Positions 50,385 through 58,940 of a stretch of 64,000 nt of DNA are shown in pieces. The stretch is taken from NCBI RefSeq assembly GCF_000151315.2, contig NW_011887304.1, positions 311,357 through 375,356 on the forward strand, given 5' to 3'. Under the pieces are notes generated by a model. The model worked only from the letters and a program-made list of their open reading frames with translations, was not told the origin of the DNA and searched no databases. The translations under genes were made by a program, and so were the position numbers. How positions within the stretch are numbered: position 1 is the stretch's first letter; each line of letters starts with the position of its first letter. The DNA comes from Capsaspora owczarzaki ATCC 30864 (lineage: Eukaryota; Opisthokonta; Filasterea).

Positions 50385-52244
50385 ATGGCCGCAGCCCAGC
50401 CCCAGTCCGTTACCATCACATTGCGCGAACTTGGTGCTCTCAATGCGCCCACCGACTTGCAGACGCAGCTCCTGCAGCACAACGTACTCCACCTCTTTTC
50501 GCGAGATGTGCCGTATGGTTTCCTCGGCGTGCAGCCGCTCCTGACAGGTCGTGCCTCGGCGCCCCCGCACTATCTCACAGGCCCTGGTGGCGTTGGCAAG
50601 AGCGGCATCCTGTTCATGCTGGTGGTCGAAGTTCTGCGTCACAACAACGCGGTGCTCAACGGTCGCGCGTCGCCAGTCCCGAACGCCGCCAACGAGCCTG
50701 TCCTCATCATCTACGTACCGAATGCAGACGAGATTGTGAGTGCTGCGCCGCAGGTTGCCGCAGAGTTGATGCTCGGGCATGTTCATCGTGCCAACGACAA
50801 CGCGCTACAGGTCGAGCAGTGGCCCTCGACTATCTCGACGCGCGTTCGCGACTGGTGGACGAAGCTGAGACAGACTCTAGACCGCGACGCTCCTGCTCTC
50901 GAAATCTGGGAAGCGGTTTTGGCGCTCCTGCGTCAGCAGCCGCTTCGCGCCCTGTTTGCCATTGACCAGTGGAACGCGCTCGTCACCGCCAGCAACCTGC
51001 CGGACAATCACCCGCTGCGACCGATGCGATCCATTGCCTTCGCCACCTATCTCTCGCAGCTCATCACCGCCGTGAGCTCGTCCTTTGGCGCGGTCGTTCT
51101 CCAGCCCGGGGTCTTCCGTGACGCTGAGCGCACCACTCGACAAGTGGATGTGAGGCGGCTGACCCCGGCCGAAGGAGAGGCCCTGCGCGGGATCTGGAAC
51201 CAACGTGCGAGCCCCATCGTCTCGCCTCAAGACATGCGCGCCGTTGTGGAGCGGACTGGAGGCATTCCGCGGCTGTGCGAGTTCTACTACTGGTCTCGGC
51301 GAGACACTGCCATGGCTTTTGACCGCCTTTGCATCAACTACTACTTGGAGCGCTTCCACGGCGTGGCGCGGCATCTCGCGGGTCGTTTGGACGACACCGA
51401 CATGACGCGTCGCTTCCAGGAGGATCTAGTTTCGCTGTATCTGCAGCGCCCGTCCCTTCAGTCGTCGCCCTCGGTCACGGCGCTCTGGGAGAGTACCGGA
51501 ATGCTCATTCGGGACAACAACGATCTGAACAAGCTCATCCCACTCAACGCGTTCGTCATGAGCGCTGCCACTATGTTCATCGACAGCACACTCGCTCATC
51601 GACTGAGCACCATCTACCACGACCCTCCCATTCGCTGGCGTGCCCTCGAGCTGTTCGTGGCCGCTTGTCTTCGTTCAAACAGACTGACGGCCATTCACTC
51701 GACCAACCTGCGGCGTGACACCCGGCGCAAACCGTTTACCATCCAGTGCACTGCACCCCATTTCCTGGACGCAAGCTTCTGCTCGGACGTTACGGCGTAT
51801 CTTGCGCAGCACAACGGCGGCCAACCCTTCCCGCTCGGCACCCTTCTCGCGCCGGCCTTCAACCTCCCGGTCGTCGACTACGTCACTTTTGCACCGTGCG
51901 GAGATCCCCAGGGTCGACGGGCGGTCACCCACGAGCTTGTCTTTATTCAAGTCAGCGCTGGCTCATACGCCGACCACCACACCAAGCTGCCCCACCTCTA
52001 CCAGCAACCACCGTCATGGGGCGACACTCTCCTGCGTTCGTTTGAGCGCGCGTTCGGAATCGCTCCCGCAGCAGTCCCGATCGACCGCACGCAGCTTCCG
52101 CCGCGAGTCAGATACATCTACATCACGGTAAGCTCGGTACGAATGCAGCGAAACACGCTCGGCTCCGGAAGTCTCGTTCATCTCGTTTCCGAAAACGATG
52201 TCGAGGAAATGGACCGCGCACGCTGGGCTGCCATGGCTCAGTGA
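50385..52244 (+). CDS. CRN/RHS-like P-loop ATPase with probable nuclease-type C-terminus
   Basis: Single-exon gene of 619 residues. A Walker A motif (TGPGGVGKSG, residues 66-73) and a Walker B-like LFAIDQWNALV (Asp194-Gln195) fit the Crinkler/RHS ATPase group, in which the B motif is typically hhDE/Q-x-N. RRLTPAEGEAL and TGGIPRLCEF follow, as in STAND-like ATPases. The C-terminal third contains LELFVAACL, PVVDYVTFAP and ELVFIQVSAGSY, arranged like a restriction-endonuclease-fold core (E...D...Q-x-V). CRN/RHS proteins are known from oomycetes, chytrids, trypanosomes and some free-living protists, where they are considered derived from mobile elements or act as effectors. Function here is unknown. 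It is the only complete intronless gene in an intron-rich window. Family assignment rests on motif pattern only. Confidence 0.6.
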   Translation: MAAAQPQSVTITLRELGALNAPTDLQTQLLQHNVLHLFSRDVPYGFLGVQPLLTGRASAPPHYLTGPGGVGKSGILFMLVVEVLRHNNAVLNGRASPVPNAANEPVLIIYVPNADEIVSAAPQVAAELMLGHVHRANDNALQVEQWPSTISTRVRDWWTKLRQTLDRDAPALEIWEAVLALLRQQPLRALFAIDQWNALVTASNLPDNHPLRPMRSIAFATYLSQLITAVSSSFGAVVLQPGVFRDAERTTRQVDVRRLTPAEGEALRGIWNQRASPIVSPQDMRAVVERTGGIPRLCEFYYWSRRDTAMAFDRLCINYYLERFHGVARHLAGRLDDTDMTRRFQEDLVSLYLQRPSLQSSPSVTALWESTGMLIRDNNDLNKLIPLNAFVMSAATMFIDSTLAHRLSTIYHDPPIRWRALELFVAACLRSNRLTAIHSTNLRRDTRRKPFTIQCTAPHFLDASFCSDVTAYLAQHNGGQPFPLGTLLAPAFNLPVVDYVTFAPCGDPQGRRAVTHELVFIQVSAGSYADHHTKLPHLYQQPPSWGDTLLRSFERAFGIAPAAVPIDRTQLPPRVRYIYITVSSVRMQRNTLGSGSLVHLVSENDVEEMDRARWAAMAQ

Positions 52245-53521: not shown

Positions 53522-53771
53522 ATGTCTGGACTCGATGCCTCAGCCTCGGCGGCCTCCCTCGGGTCTGTGCAGGGCCCCGCGACCACCAACGTGCTTGTGA
53601 CGCCAATCGCAGGCTTCCACACTGAGCGCGAGCGGCTCCTCTCCGTCAATCTCGGTGGTACGTTCAAACAATACCAAAAATGCTCAAAAACAATACTCTT
53701 CCAATGCATACAACTGTGGCTTTTTATTTTTTTTTTTATTTTTTTTTTTTTCATTCCTTCAAACCCTTCTG

Positions 53772-53808
<37 letters not shown>

Positions 53809-54302
53809 CCTTCTTTGCTTTTGCTTTGCTTTTGCTGGTCGACCGGTCGGTCTGTAGGTGGAGTCCCCTCTGTTCGCACTCCACTGAATTGCTCTTCTCT
53901 CGCTCTCTCTCTCGCTCTGTCTCATTCGCTTTGGGCTTGCGTGTCTATTTTTTTATGATTTTTTTTTTTTTTTTTGTTGCGGTTGCATTTTTTCTTTCTT
54001 TTTTATTGTTTATTCGTTTTTAGTAAGCTGATCTGGTTTTTAAGGCTTGAGCGTATACGAGTTGTTCACTACCACGCCCTGTCATTTTCTTTTCTTTTTT
54101 TTTCTTTTTTTCAAAGATTCGATCTATCTGGTGTTTGCCCTCTCTGATCTTTGAGAAGAGGGGGAAACAATAACCTTTTGTAATGAAGAGCAGCAGACGA
54201 CGGCAATAGCCGACCACAGTGTGTGGCAACAGTATCCACTGCAACCACAAACCTCAGCTTGACATTCACCTTTGCTATTTTTGTGCAAATGCGTGTGAAA
54301 CC

Positions 54303-54380
<78 letters not shown>

Positions 54381-56923
54381 CAAGACACTCGACTCGATCA
54401 AGACCAAGACATACACCATCGAACACACCCGAGAGCGTTGGTACGAGCGGTTCTTCTGGGACAAGGGTAAGTCGATCGTATTGTATTGGATTGATTGTGC
54501 TATGTTGGAATTCCGTTGGTTCTCCTCAAAGCATGTTCGCACATGCACACAAAAACTCAAACTCAAATCAACCCTTGCCAACCACACAGAGCACCAGAAC
54601 TTTGTCGGCAAGCACGATGTTCTCGGCCCGATCGCATTGTCGTTGCTCAAGGAAAAGGTCGTTTCGTCTGCCGACGAGAAAAAGTACCAATACCGCGCTA
54701 TTCTGTGGACCAAGAAGGTATGTGAGACAGGGTCTTTGTTGCAAAGTGTTTGGAACCTCAGCAATGATGATGCGGGGCTTTTTTTTTTTTTTTTTTCGCT
54801 TTTTCGCTTTTTCGAAATCACAACTTTGTTGCTTCTGCTCATCTCCTCCTCCATTTCTCTTTCTCAATCTCTCGACAACCCCACACAGGGAATGCTCCGA
54901 TGCTACTTCCCCAAGAAATCAAACAAGACGGCAGACGTGTTTGCATCGATTGCAGATGCGTGCGAGTTGCAACGCTCGTCCTTGAACAATTTGATGCTGG
55001 TGCAAAAGGAGCAACAGCAAAAGCTCTCGACAGACCTGCTCAAGATTGAGTCGATGGAGACGTCTTCGCGACTCATCTTTGGCGTTGTATTCGGCCGGAA
55101 CAATCAGACAAGCCTCGAAGACATGCTTTTGAACGAGCACGGCTCGGAGACGTTCACTCAGCTGCTCGATGTGATTGCGACCAAGGTGGACGTGAACACA
55201 TTCCAGAACAAGGATTTGATGAAGTTTGCCGGCTTGAGCGCCAAGTCAGAAACCACCTCGGACGGTGTCGAATCGGCCTACTATACCGAGTTTGACGGCT
55301 TTGAAATCATGTTCCACGTCTCCACCCTTCTGCCATACGTTGCCTCCGACATGCAGCAAGTCGCCCGCAAGCGCAAGATTGGCAATGACATTGGTGTGTT
55401 GGTCGTTCACGAGGGCACTGGCGGTTTCTCGCCGTCCATGACCAGCAGCAAGGTCAACCATGTTTTCGGCATGCTCCAAGTCGACAAGCGACAAAACACG
55501 CATGTGCAGTTCCGCTTTGTCACCGCCGCCAAGGACGAGGTCCCAGCCTTTGGCCCCGTGCTCCAAGAGGAGTTGACTGTTTTCGACGATCCTGCCGTTT
55601 TCCGATCTTTCATTCTGACCAAGAGTGAGTGTGGCTTGTTGCCGTTGTCGATAGTTGTGCTTTTTTTGTTTTTGGCTGATATCTCGCAATGACTGACGTG
55701 TTTGTCGTTGTGTTTTGTCTGCTGCAGTGATCAACGGTGTCCATGCCGCCTATCACCATGCTCCTGGCTTCCGACGCGAGACAACGCAAGAAAAGCTGCT
55801 CGATGACTTGTTGAATCGCTACAGCAGTCGAAACCGGTATGCATTTATGCTTGCAACAATAGAGCCGTGTTTTGTTTGTGCCTTCATCAAACTCACTTCT
55901 TGCTGTCTCTCCGCCCCCCCCCCGCACCCTTCCTTGTCCAGCTGGGTCTCGTGGTCGTCAAAGCACGCTCGCCGTCGCTCAGTACTCATCTCGCCAGCAG
56001 AGCTGCATGCAGGTCTTTGCGCGTCCTGCTTGAAGCCAATCACCATTTCGGAGACGGGCGTGAGCGCGCTGGGCAAGTCGTGGCACGTCAACCACTTTGT
56101 GTGCGCTCACTGCGACGTTGCGTTCGGCACTTCTCCGTTTATTGTCAACCCGCAAGATAACAAGCCTTATTGCGAAAAGGACTATGAAGACTTGTTCTGC
56201 CCTCGGTGCCAGGCGTGCGAGAAGCCCATTTCCGACTACGTGTTGCAGGCGATGGGCAAGACGTGGCACATGCTCCACTTTGTCTGCGACGAGTGCCAGG
56301 AACCCATCGGCGAGCGTCTCTTTGTCGAAAAGGACGGCAAGGCATACTGCCTCGACGATTTCTACAAAAAGTTTGGCTTTGCCTGCGCCAAGTGCAGCGA
56401 GCTCATCACCGGCGAGTACATTGAGGCCCTCGGTCGGCGGTGGCACACGCAGTGTTACACTTGCTTCTCGTGCAACAAGTCCATCAACGGACCCAACGTT
56501 AACGCGATGGGCTTCCCGTGGCATCCCGACTGCTTCTGCTGCCAGGTAGGTTTTTTTGGCAGAGCGCTCGTTGAGTGTGGAGTTGTCTGGAGTCGAGTGT
56601 CTGACTGTTCTTTTGCTCTTTTCGACCACTTTTTGATGCCACAGGTCTGCAGGAAGACGTTCGACGACGGCTGCTTCTTTGAGCATGAAAACAGGCCGTA
56701 CTGCGAACTCCACTTTTACGACATTACGGGCTCGTTGTGCGCCAAGTGCCAGGAGCCCATTTTGGACGACCAAATTGTCCGGGCCTTGGACAAGAGCTAC
56801 CACGCCGACCACTTCTGCTGCATGAAGTGCAACAAAGTGATTGGCGACAACGAGCACTTTATTGAGCACGAGGCCATGCCTTACTGCCAAGGATGTGCTG
56901 TCGAGTTTGAGTCTTCAACATGA
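53522..56923 (+). CDS. Rap GTPase-activating protein fused to LIM domains
   Basis: Seven phase-consistent exons: 53522..53657, 54380..54466, 54590..54717, 54889..55624, 55728..55836, 55942..56545 and 56645..56923, giving 692 residues. The N-terminal part is a RapGAP catalytic domain (WYERFFWDKEHQNFVGKHD, FGVVFGRNNQTSLEDMLLN, FEIMFHVSTLLPY, ARKRKIGNDIGVLVVHEG with the catalytic 'Asn thumb' near Asn283, VPAFGPVL). From about residue 425 come four paxillin-like LIM domains (CASC...HFVCAHC, CQAC...HFVCDEC, CAKC...CYTCFSC, CAKC...HFCCMKC). The RapGAP-to-LIM joint is the phase-2 intron CG|C at 55836/55942, in frame on both sides. It would switch off Rap, probably at adhesion sites targeted by LIM domains; that role is inferred. 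LIM3 carries an extra C2HC zinc module. Confidence 0.88.
53777..53805. repeat. T-tracts in RapGAP-LIM intron 1
   Basis: A run of about 29 T, with further T-rich runs at 53720-53750 and 53958-53976, all in intron 1 on the sense strand. Confidence 0.75.
54305..54377. repeat. (CA)n microsatellite abutting a splice acceptor
   Basis: About 36 uninterrupted CA units inside intron 1 of RapGAP-LIM. The last CA runs directly into the CAG acceptor of exon 2, which begins at 54380. Confidence 0.9.
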
Positions 56924-57395: not shown

Positions 57396-58940
57396 TTACT
57401 GTGTGAATTGCGAATCCAAGTGCGATGGGTGGGCCTGTGATGAAGAGTTGTTGTTGTTGTTGTTCACGACGTGGTTGGGCTGGGCTAGCAAATGCTGGTG
57501 AGCTTGGAGCTGCTGGAACTGTTGGAATTGGCTCATTTGTTGCATTCTAGTAAGCTGGAGCTCGCGCTGTTGTTGGTCCTGGAATGCTTGTTGTTGTTGA
57601 GATATGTCTTGTTGTTGTTGAGCTATTGGTGCCGGAACGGCGGCAGCTGCAGCTGCCGTTGACGCAGCCGGCGCCTGTGCTGCCTCGACAGGAGGCTCGA
57701 GAATCATGGTGATGCCAGTGCGGTCGAAAATGCTTTGCTCTGTGCCGGGTTGAACAGACTGTTGGTTATCAAACAACAACAACAACGACAAAACACTGCT
57801 GCCCCCACTTTGCCATCAAAACAACACAGTCCGCAAATAGCTCACCATTGGGAAGATTGCCAACGATCGCATGGATGGAAGCAAAGTACACGTGTTGAAG
57901 CGCTTCGGCCGCGGAGACACGCATGGCGGGATTGTACTGGAGAAGTCGGTTGAGCAAGGTCACGCCGAGCGAATCCATCTTTGGCACAATGGAGGCCAGC
58001 TGGACGGCCGGTGTGACTGGAAAGTCGCCGCGAAAGTTTGGCAGCTGCGACACGCCAGGCCAGGTGAGCTCGGTGGGTGTGCCGCGCTGCTTGAAGATGC
58101 GCGCCAATTGCTCGTCGACATTCTTCCCGGCAAACAGCGGACGGCCAGTGGTCATTTCGCCAAAAATACAGCCAATCGACCACATATCGATGGACGTGCT
58201 GTACACCTGCGAGCCCATCAGGACGTCTGGCGGCCGGTACCACAGCGTGACGACTTCGTGCGAGAATGCCTTGACGGGGATGCCAAATGCGCGCGCCAGG
58301 CCAAAGTCGGCCAGCTTGACGTCGCCGGTCGCGCGATTGAGCAGCAGGTTCTGCGGCTTGAGGTCGCGGTGCAGGATGGACTTGGAGTGGCAGTACGCGA
58401 TGCCGCGCAGGACCTGGTACAGGATGAGCTGGACGTTCGCCGGCGCCAGGTTCTTTCCGCACGCGTCCATATGCTGCTTGAGGTCGCAGTCGAGATGCTC
58501 AAAGATCAGCGTGAGGCGCTCGCGGGTGTGCGCGACGTCCAGCAAGGCGACAATGTTGGCGTGTCGGAGTTCCTTGAGCAGCGAGATTTCACGCAGCGCA
58601 GTGCACGGCGTCCCTTCGTCGCGGTTGAGGTTGATTTGCTTGAGCGCGACGAGGGTCGAGCTTGGTCTGTAATACAGCAGGAGGAGCATGGAGGAGGTGG
58701 TTCAGTTCAGAGAGAGAGGATTAAGGTGTTGAAGTGGTTTTGAGGTTTGAGACCGCAAAGATGGAAGATTTTCTGAGATTTCTGAGATTTCTGAGGGTTT
58801 TGAAAGATTTCGAAACATTTTGAAAACACTCACTTGTGAATGGCGCGGAAGACGCTGGCGTAGGTGCCTTCGCCGAGCTTGGTGGACAGCTCGTATTGCT
58901 CAAGCTTGCGGGCGTACGCGTCGGATAAATGGAAGGACAT
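57396..58940 (-). CDS. Cyclin-dependent kinase, CDK5/Pho85 type (PCTALRE)
   Basis: Three exons, 58940..58834, 58666..57846 and 57739..57396 (phases 2 and 1), give 423 residues. The kinase domain has the Gly loop GEGTYASV, catalytic Lys in VALKQINL (about 45), C-helix PCTALRE (about 56-62), [32 protein letters not shown] (DFG and activation segment) and [26 protein letters not shown] and the lack of a CAK-type T-loop Thr agree with CDK5/Pho85 enzymes; PCTALRE is close to PCTAIRE and PSSALRE. A Gln/Ala/Asn-rich tail of about 110 residues follows the kinase. The exon 3 acceptor at 57740-57742 is preferred over a nearer CAG because only it keeps frame ([11 protein letters not shown]). The cyclin partner cannot be told from sequence. 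Confidence 0.88.

Follow-up and report, generated by a model that had tools for sequence, protein, structure and literature searches.

The window, a stretch of 64,000 nucleotides from contig NW_011887304.1 of Capsaspora owczarzaki ATCC 30864, carries at 53522-56923 a gene in which a RapGAP half is followed by a LIM cassette. Splicing of its seven exons gives an uninterrupted frame of 692 amino acids, from an ATG at 53522 to a TGA at 56921-56923. All six introns have GT-AG borders, and frame, phase, and splice sites are consistent at every joint of the gene model. Third-position GC runs from 0.60 to 0.82 across the seven exons, compared with an overall GC of 0.38-0.51 in the introns. From the sequence, we infer that the mRNA is expressed and spliced as modeled. 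The exons, the catalytic region, and the LIM domains are collected in Table 1. On the upstream side, the window has a long single-exon open reading frame (ORF) on the plus strand (about 50385-52244) with a P-loop-like motif, GPGGVGKS; its 619 amino acids gave no Pfam match at an E value of 0.001. On the other side lies a protein kinase ORF with a CDK-like look on the minus strand (57769-58701; Pkinase, 201 bits), and downstream of that ORF there is a Gln-rich frame (57396-57815).

Table 1. Features of the RapGAP-LIM gene, with positions in the window and, where available, on contig C13
Feature	Position in window	Strand	Position on contig	Description
Exon 1	53522-53657	+		ATG and first 45 residues; strict LD motif absent
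Exon 2	54380-54466	+		Rap-GAP dimerization domain begins
Exon 3	54590-54717	+		Rap-GAP dimerization domain continues (Pfam residues 65-129 overall)
Exon 4	54889-55624	+		Bulk of the Rap_GAP catalytic domain
Lys280-Ile-Gly-Asn283 codons	55375-55386	+		Asn283 codon at 55384-55386, counted by hand
Exon 5	55728-55836	+		RapGAP C-terminal helix and start of linker
Intron 5	55837-55941	+		Phase 2, 105 nt, no in-frame stop, no AATAAA or ATTAAA; inside genomic frame 55697-56923
Exon 6	55942-56545	+		Remaining linker, LIM1, LIM2, larger part of LIM3
LIM1	56018-56197	+	C13:367374-367553	
LIM2	56207-56374	+	C13:367563-367730	
LIM3	56384-56713	+		Three zinc-ligand modules; intron 6 (56546-56644) lies inside; genome end counted by hand
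Exon 7	56645-56923	+		End of LIM3, LIM4, stop codon
LIM4	56738-56899	+	C13:368094-368255	

The join between the two halves is independent of the splice model, because the length of intron 5 is divisible by three, the intron contains no stops, and one genomic frame takes in both the C-terminal RapGAP helix and the LIMs. This frame has no stop and spans exons 5, 6, and 7 together with the two introns between them. Intron 6, at 99 nt, is also a multiple of three with no in-frame stop. Whether introns 5 and 6 are spliced or retained, the LIMs stay in frame with the RapGAP helix. When intron 5 was shuffled base by base, it came out stop-free in 0.413 of 5,000 trials, so its openness is in itself unremarkable; the key point is that no stop stands between the halves. 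The initial annotation had described an in-frame fusion at 53522-56923 through a phase-2 intron, and the spliced frame with its six GT-AG introns bears this out. It had also assigned both halves to one polypeptide, which is the natural reading and is better supported than had been claimed, since the frame is kept with intron 5 either retained or spliced. We are highly confident that the RapGAP and LIM halves form one fused protein.

Four of the six introns of the gene (54467-54589, 54718-54888, 55837-55941, and 56546-56644) have lengths divisible by three and contain no in-frame stop, and their retention would leave the frame open. Intron retention is described as frequent in Capsaspora, but read-through introns as a low fraction of the regulated ones (PMC3870316).

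The full RapGAP domain with a catalytic Asn that the initial annotation had reported was recovered. Pfam Rap_GAP matches residues 196-383 of the spliced protein with 128.9 bits against a cut-off of 27, and Rap-GAP_dimer matches residues 65-129 with 32.5 bits against a cut-off of 27, over profile positions 3-62 of 106. A profile search of the whole genome (27.46 Mb in 29 contigs) also recovers the Rap_GAP exon of the window, with 122.8 bits, as well as its LIM exons. The catalytic center of Rap1GAP is placed at Asn290 (PMC4432964). Our alignment with Rap1GAP (1srq) extends from residue 63 to residue 390, covering the dimerization region and reaching into exon 5, with an E value of 6.6e-31. Asn283 falls at the position of the catalytic Asn. 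The surrounding RK-x-IGND is retained. Three residues before the Asn, Lys280 occupies the position of a Rap1GAP residue that we take to be His287. In Rap1GAP, His287 helps to bind or orient Rap. A His is found at the position equivalent to Lys280 in all eight of the other RapGAP loci of the same genome that we compared, which were taken from 13 other RapGAP places and selected without requiring a His; it is present in Rap1GAP, tuberin, and RalGAP-alpha2 as well. By these alignments, the His is conserved, though it may not define the family.

We then considered how far this RapGAP has diverged from the others in the genome. In a nine-row comparison, which includes L003 and leaves out L006, a locus split over two exons, the window RapGAP has lost 10 of the 32 positions that are invariant in the other eight rows. 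The corresponding losses in the other eight rows are 0, 0, 1, 1, 2, 2, 3, and 5 of 22-27 invariant positions. An earlier row set that included the same RapGAP domain gave a loss of 10 of 37 invariant positions; its rows had been selected by a pattern that demanded the His, which biases the His count in that set, and L007 seems to be misaligned in its C-terminal part, which can only reduce the number of invariant columns. The window RapGAP also has the lowest tblastn score among the nine own-genome RapGAP places compared, one split exon aside. Judged by these comparisons, the RapGAP half is complete in layout and clearly the most altered of the nine rows, and its activity is uncertain. If the protein is fused, we lean toward its having catalytic GAP activity.

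The second half matches Pfam LIM in five stretches of the spliced protein, above the cut-off and with 204.3 bits. The initial annotation counted four paxillin-type LIM domains here, and four is indeed the number of units, with the difference that LIM3 has three zinc-ligand modules where two are usual. The extra CxxC...HxxC module was found in a regular-expression scan. Of the 22 other LIM loci of the genome that were scanned, three (L044, L048, and L050) show the same three-module pattern; L029 in this set overlaps L046. An error of modeling in LIM3 was considered and rejected, since no plausible small intron is visible by eye and the pattern recurs at these three loci.

Searched against solved structures, the cassette matched 49 sequences, with paxillin at the top (2.3e-29) and PINCH second (5e-22). 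Among the 22 other LIM loci of the genome, the best match is L040, with 39.2% identity over 265 residues and 212 bits, followed by L042 with 172 bits. In L040, LD-type motifs (two strict and five loose pattern matches) precede the four encoded LIMs, and on this basis we take it as the paxillin of this genome. In a tree of 28 domains, LIM1, LIM3, and LIM4 of the window grouped with LIM1, LIM3, and LIM4 of paxillin, with support of 93/89, 85/85, and 86/67, respectively; none of these three groups was starred, each has other loci inside it, and LIM2 was unplaced. Pairwise scores favor the matching paxillin domain at two of the four positions, LIM1 and LIM3. At the other two, paxillin LIM1 scores above the matching domain (150 versus 148 for LIM2 and 107 versus 96 for LIM4). 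The top single tblastn match of LIM1 is L051, not paxillin. The paxillin label of the initial annotation therefore stands for the cassette, which is nearest to paxillin both among structures and within the genome, and is only partly borne out position by position. As a description of the whole cassette, "paxillin-type" is a fair name; descent of the LIMs from paxillin domain by domain is suggested by the tree, not proved.

A pattern scan of the 692-amino-acid protein found no strict LD motif, and we rejected full membership in the paxillin family because strict LD motifs are absent. Residues 387-394 (55796-55819, counted by hand), which close the C-terminal helix of the RapGAP and directly precede the LIM linker, read LDDLLNRY. 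This stretch is one letter off the strict LD-motif pattern, and the resemblance may be due to chance.

The pairing of LIM with RapGAP is not confined to this gene. At C1:2065793-2072506, a single frame of 2,237 codons (L039) encodes a LIM, three DEP domains, Rap-GAP_dimer, and Rap_GAP (217.8 bits). Its RapGAP carries the canonical His, and its only LIM, which is N-terminal, sits on a long branch of the tree, distant from the LIMs of the window. By eye comparison of the coordinates of two lower-bound lists, at least 2 of 14 RapGAP places belong to genes that also encode a LIM. Since L039 and the window gene differ in both order and content, we suggest that the combination arose twice, separately. 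A third arrangement is found at C3:1080809-1085017, where a myosin head and a Rap_GAP are each listed in an open frame of 1,675 amino acids, on one strand and about 1.6 kb apart; in translation, the RapGAP there is preceded by a stretch that resembles an IQ or coiled-coil region. Rap_GAP has been listed as a partner domain of myosin specific to filastereans (PMC3942036).

We next looked for the likely substrate and setting of such a protein. Seven small-GTPase places were examined, and one of these, C3:853996-854442, is Rap1-like with a DTAGTEQF motif (Thr61-type). It is identical to human Rap-1b in 133 of 147 aligned columns, the N-terminal exon lying outside the comparison. A small GTPase on C11 has DTAGTENF instead. 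Integrin-beta is found at four places in the genome (six matches). The integrin-beta tails of Capsaspora are described as recruiting talin, and its inside-out integrin control as remaining to be elucidated (PMC6450878). Integrin adhesome genes rise in Capsaspora aggregates (PMC3870316). In beta3-integrin adhesions, paxillin is brought in by its own LIMs, with LIM2 as the major determinant (PMC8007706). Dictyostelium cells without RapGAP1 or RapGAPB attach more firmly (PMC9197732).

Our interpretation starts from what was observed: the architecture, the common frame, homology in both halves, and the presence of Rap1 and integrin-beta genes. GAP activity, localization, and an effect on adhesion are what we infer from them. 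A basic linker of about 34 residues connects the C-terminal helix of the RapGAP to the paxillin-type LIM cassette. In the proposed mechanism, the cassette would carry the GAP to integrin/talin/kindlin adhesions or to strained actin, where the dimeric GAP would hydrolyze Rap1-GTP locally. The lower level of Rap1-GTP would then lead to less integrin activation and aid the turnover of adhesions. Given one fused protein, targeting to adhesions or actin by the LIMs is likely. For the reading as a whole, a single-gene fusion of a Rap1GAP-type dimeric GAP and paxillin-type LIMs that is placed at adhesions or strained actin and hydrolyzes Rap1-GTP there, we estimate a probability of about 0.5. The initial annotation had already proposed that the fusion ties Rap inactivation to adhesion structures; the Rap1 gene, the integrin-beta genes, and the paxillin-like cassette speak for this, and the change of His to Lys beside the Asn, in the most diverged of the RapGAP rows, speaks against it.

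Catalysis is the main doubt about this reading. Those same changes would fit a fused protein whose RapGAP is no longer a working GAP and serves as a Rap-binding or dimerizing scaffold, leaving most of the work to the LIMs. Lys replaces an otherwise constant His, the number of otherwise invariant positions lost is twice the 5 of the next row, and the tblastn score is the lowest of the nine places, again with one split exon aside. Such a scaffold is a serious alternative, though less likely in our judgment, with the catalytic Asn and RK-x-IGND kept, a Rap_GAP match far above its cut-off, and both the dimerization domain and the C-terminal helix in place. An active RapGAP could also be sent elsewhere, if what the LIMs bind is not integrin adhesions but filopodia, the nucleus, or actin structures in general. 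Several targets of LIM cassettes are known, PINCH is the second relative among solved structures, and paxillin LIMs are documented on strained actin. But paxillin is the nearest cassette in both comparisons, and the adhesion gene set is at least partly present, so that we regard such a destination as improbable.

The remaining alternatives question the fusion itself. The two halves could be made separately, with one transcript that encodes the RapGAP and stops within or close to intron 5, and a LIM-only protein that starts from an in-frame ATG at 55847, inside this intron. This is very improbable. No stop separates the RapGAP helix from the LIMs with the intron spliced or retained, only 105 bp are available to house a terminator and a promoter, and the splice sites of intron 5 are standard and its C/T content is 0.69. 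AATAAA and ATTAAA are absent from all six introns, though also from the 900 bases after 56900, which makes this a weak test. We therefore rejected two genes as the main reading, the frame being open either way; alternative transcripts from the fused gene are possible. Least probable of all, and highly unlikely, is a chance or assembly artifact that joins neighboring genes: frame, phase, and splice sites agree at all joints (in one assembly), and L039 provides an independent LIM and RapGAP gene in one uninterrupted frame.

The preferred reading, a RapGAP placed by LIMs at adhesions or strained actin, brings known families into a new combination. The initial annotation knew of no described RapGAP-LIM protein, and we found no description of this fusion in the subset of open-access literature searched; the pair of domains is nonetheless not unique, given L039 in the same genome. 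In domain databases such as InterPro, an unannounced annotation of the architecture may well exist. Passages of PMC5560861 mention LIM-homeobox genes and not RapGAP. More speculatively, the gene may encode a built-in adhesion off-switch of filastereans: by means of its paxillin-type LIMs, a Rap GAP would enter integrin adhesions as they assemble, making assembly itself the step that brings in the Rap inactivator, and, together with L039 and the myosin-RapGAP, the coupling of Rap inactivation to cytoskeletal modules would be a theme of the lineage before animals. We hold this wider idea tentatively and with some doubt. A single protein with both halves, in a unicellular relative of animals that has integrins, would show that the coupling of Rap control to adhesion targeting already existed beyond animals and was reached by a different route. 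The gene offers a simple handle for asking if Rap acts on the integrins of filastereans. Transfection works in Capsaspora (PMC6001378), and editing of its genome has been achieved (PMC9170242).

How does this protein compare with known systems? It shares with Rap1GAP (RAP1GAP; PDB 1srq and 3brw) a dimerization domain followed by a catalytic domain, in the same order and with the Asn conserved, and differs from it in the added C-terminal LIM cassette and in the Lys for His before the Asn. With paxillin, Hic-5, leupaxin, and Dictyostelium PaxB it has in common a C-terminal array of four LIM units; unlike these, it has a RapGAP in place of the LD-motif N terminus and an extra zinc module in LIM3. 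Animals have Rap1 GAPs and paxillin as distinct proteins, which are brought together by several partners. The filasterean myosin with Rap_GAP (PMC3942036) similarly joins a RapGAP to a cytoskeletal module, which is a myosin head rather than LIMs. L039 is alike in having LIM and RapGAP, with the dimerization domain, in one protein, but it has one N-terminal LIM, three DEP domains, and the canonical His, and its domain order is reversed with respect to the window gene. Yeast Rga1 and Lrg1 also carry LIM domains on a GAP for small GTPases; there the GAP is a RhoGAP, an unrelated fold that acts on Rho/Cdc42.
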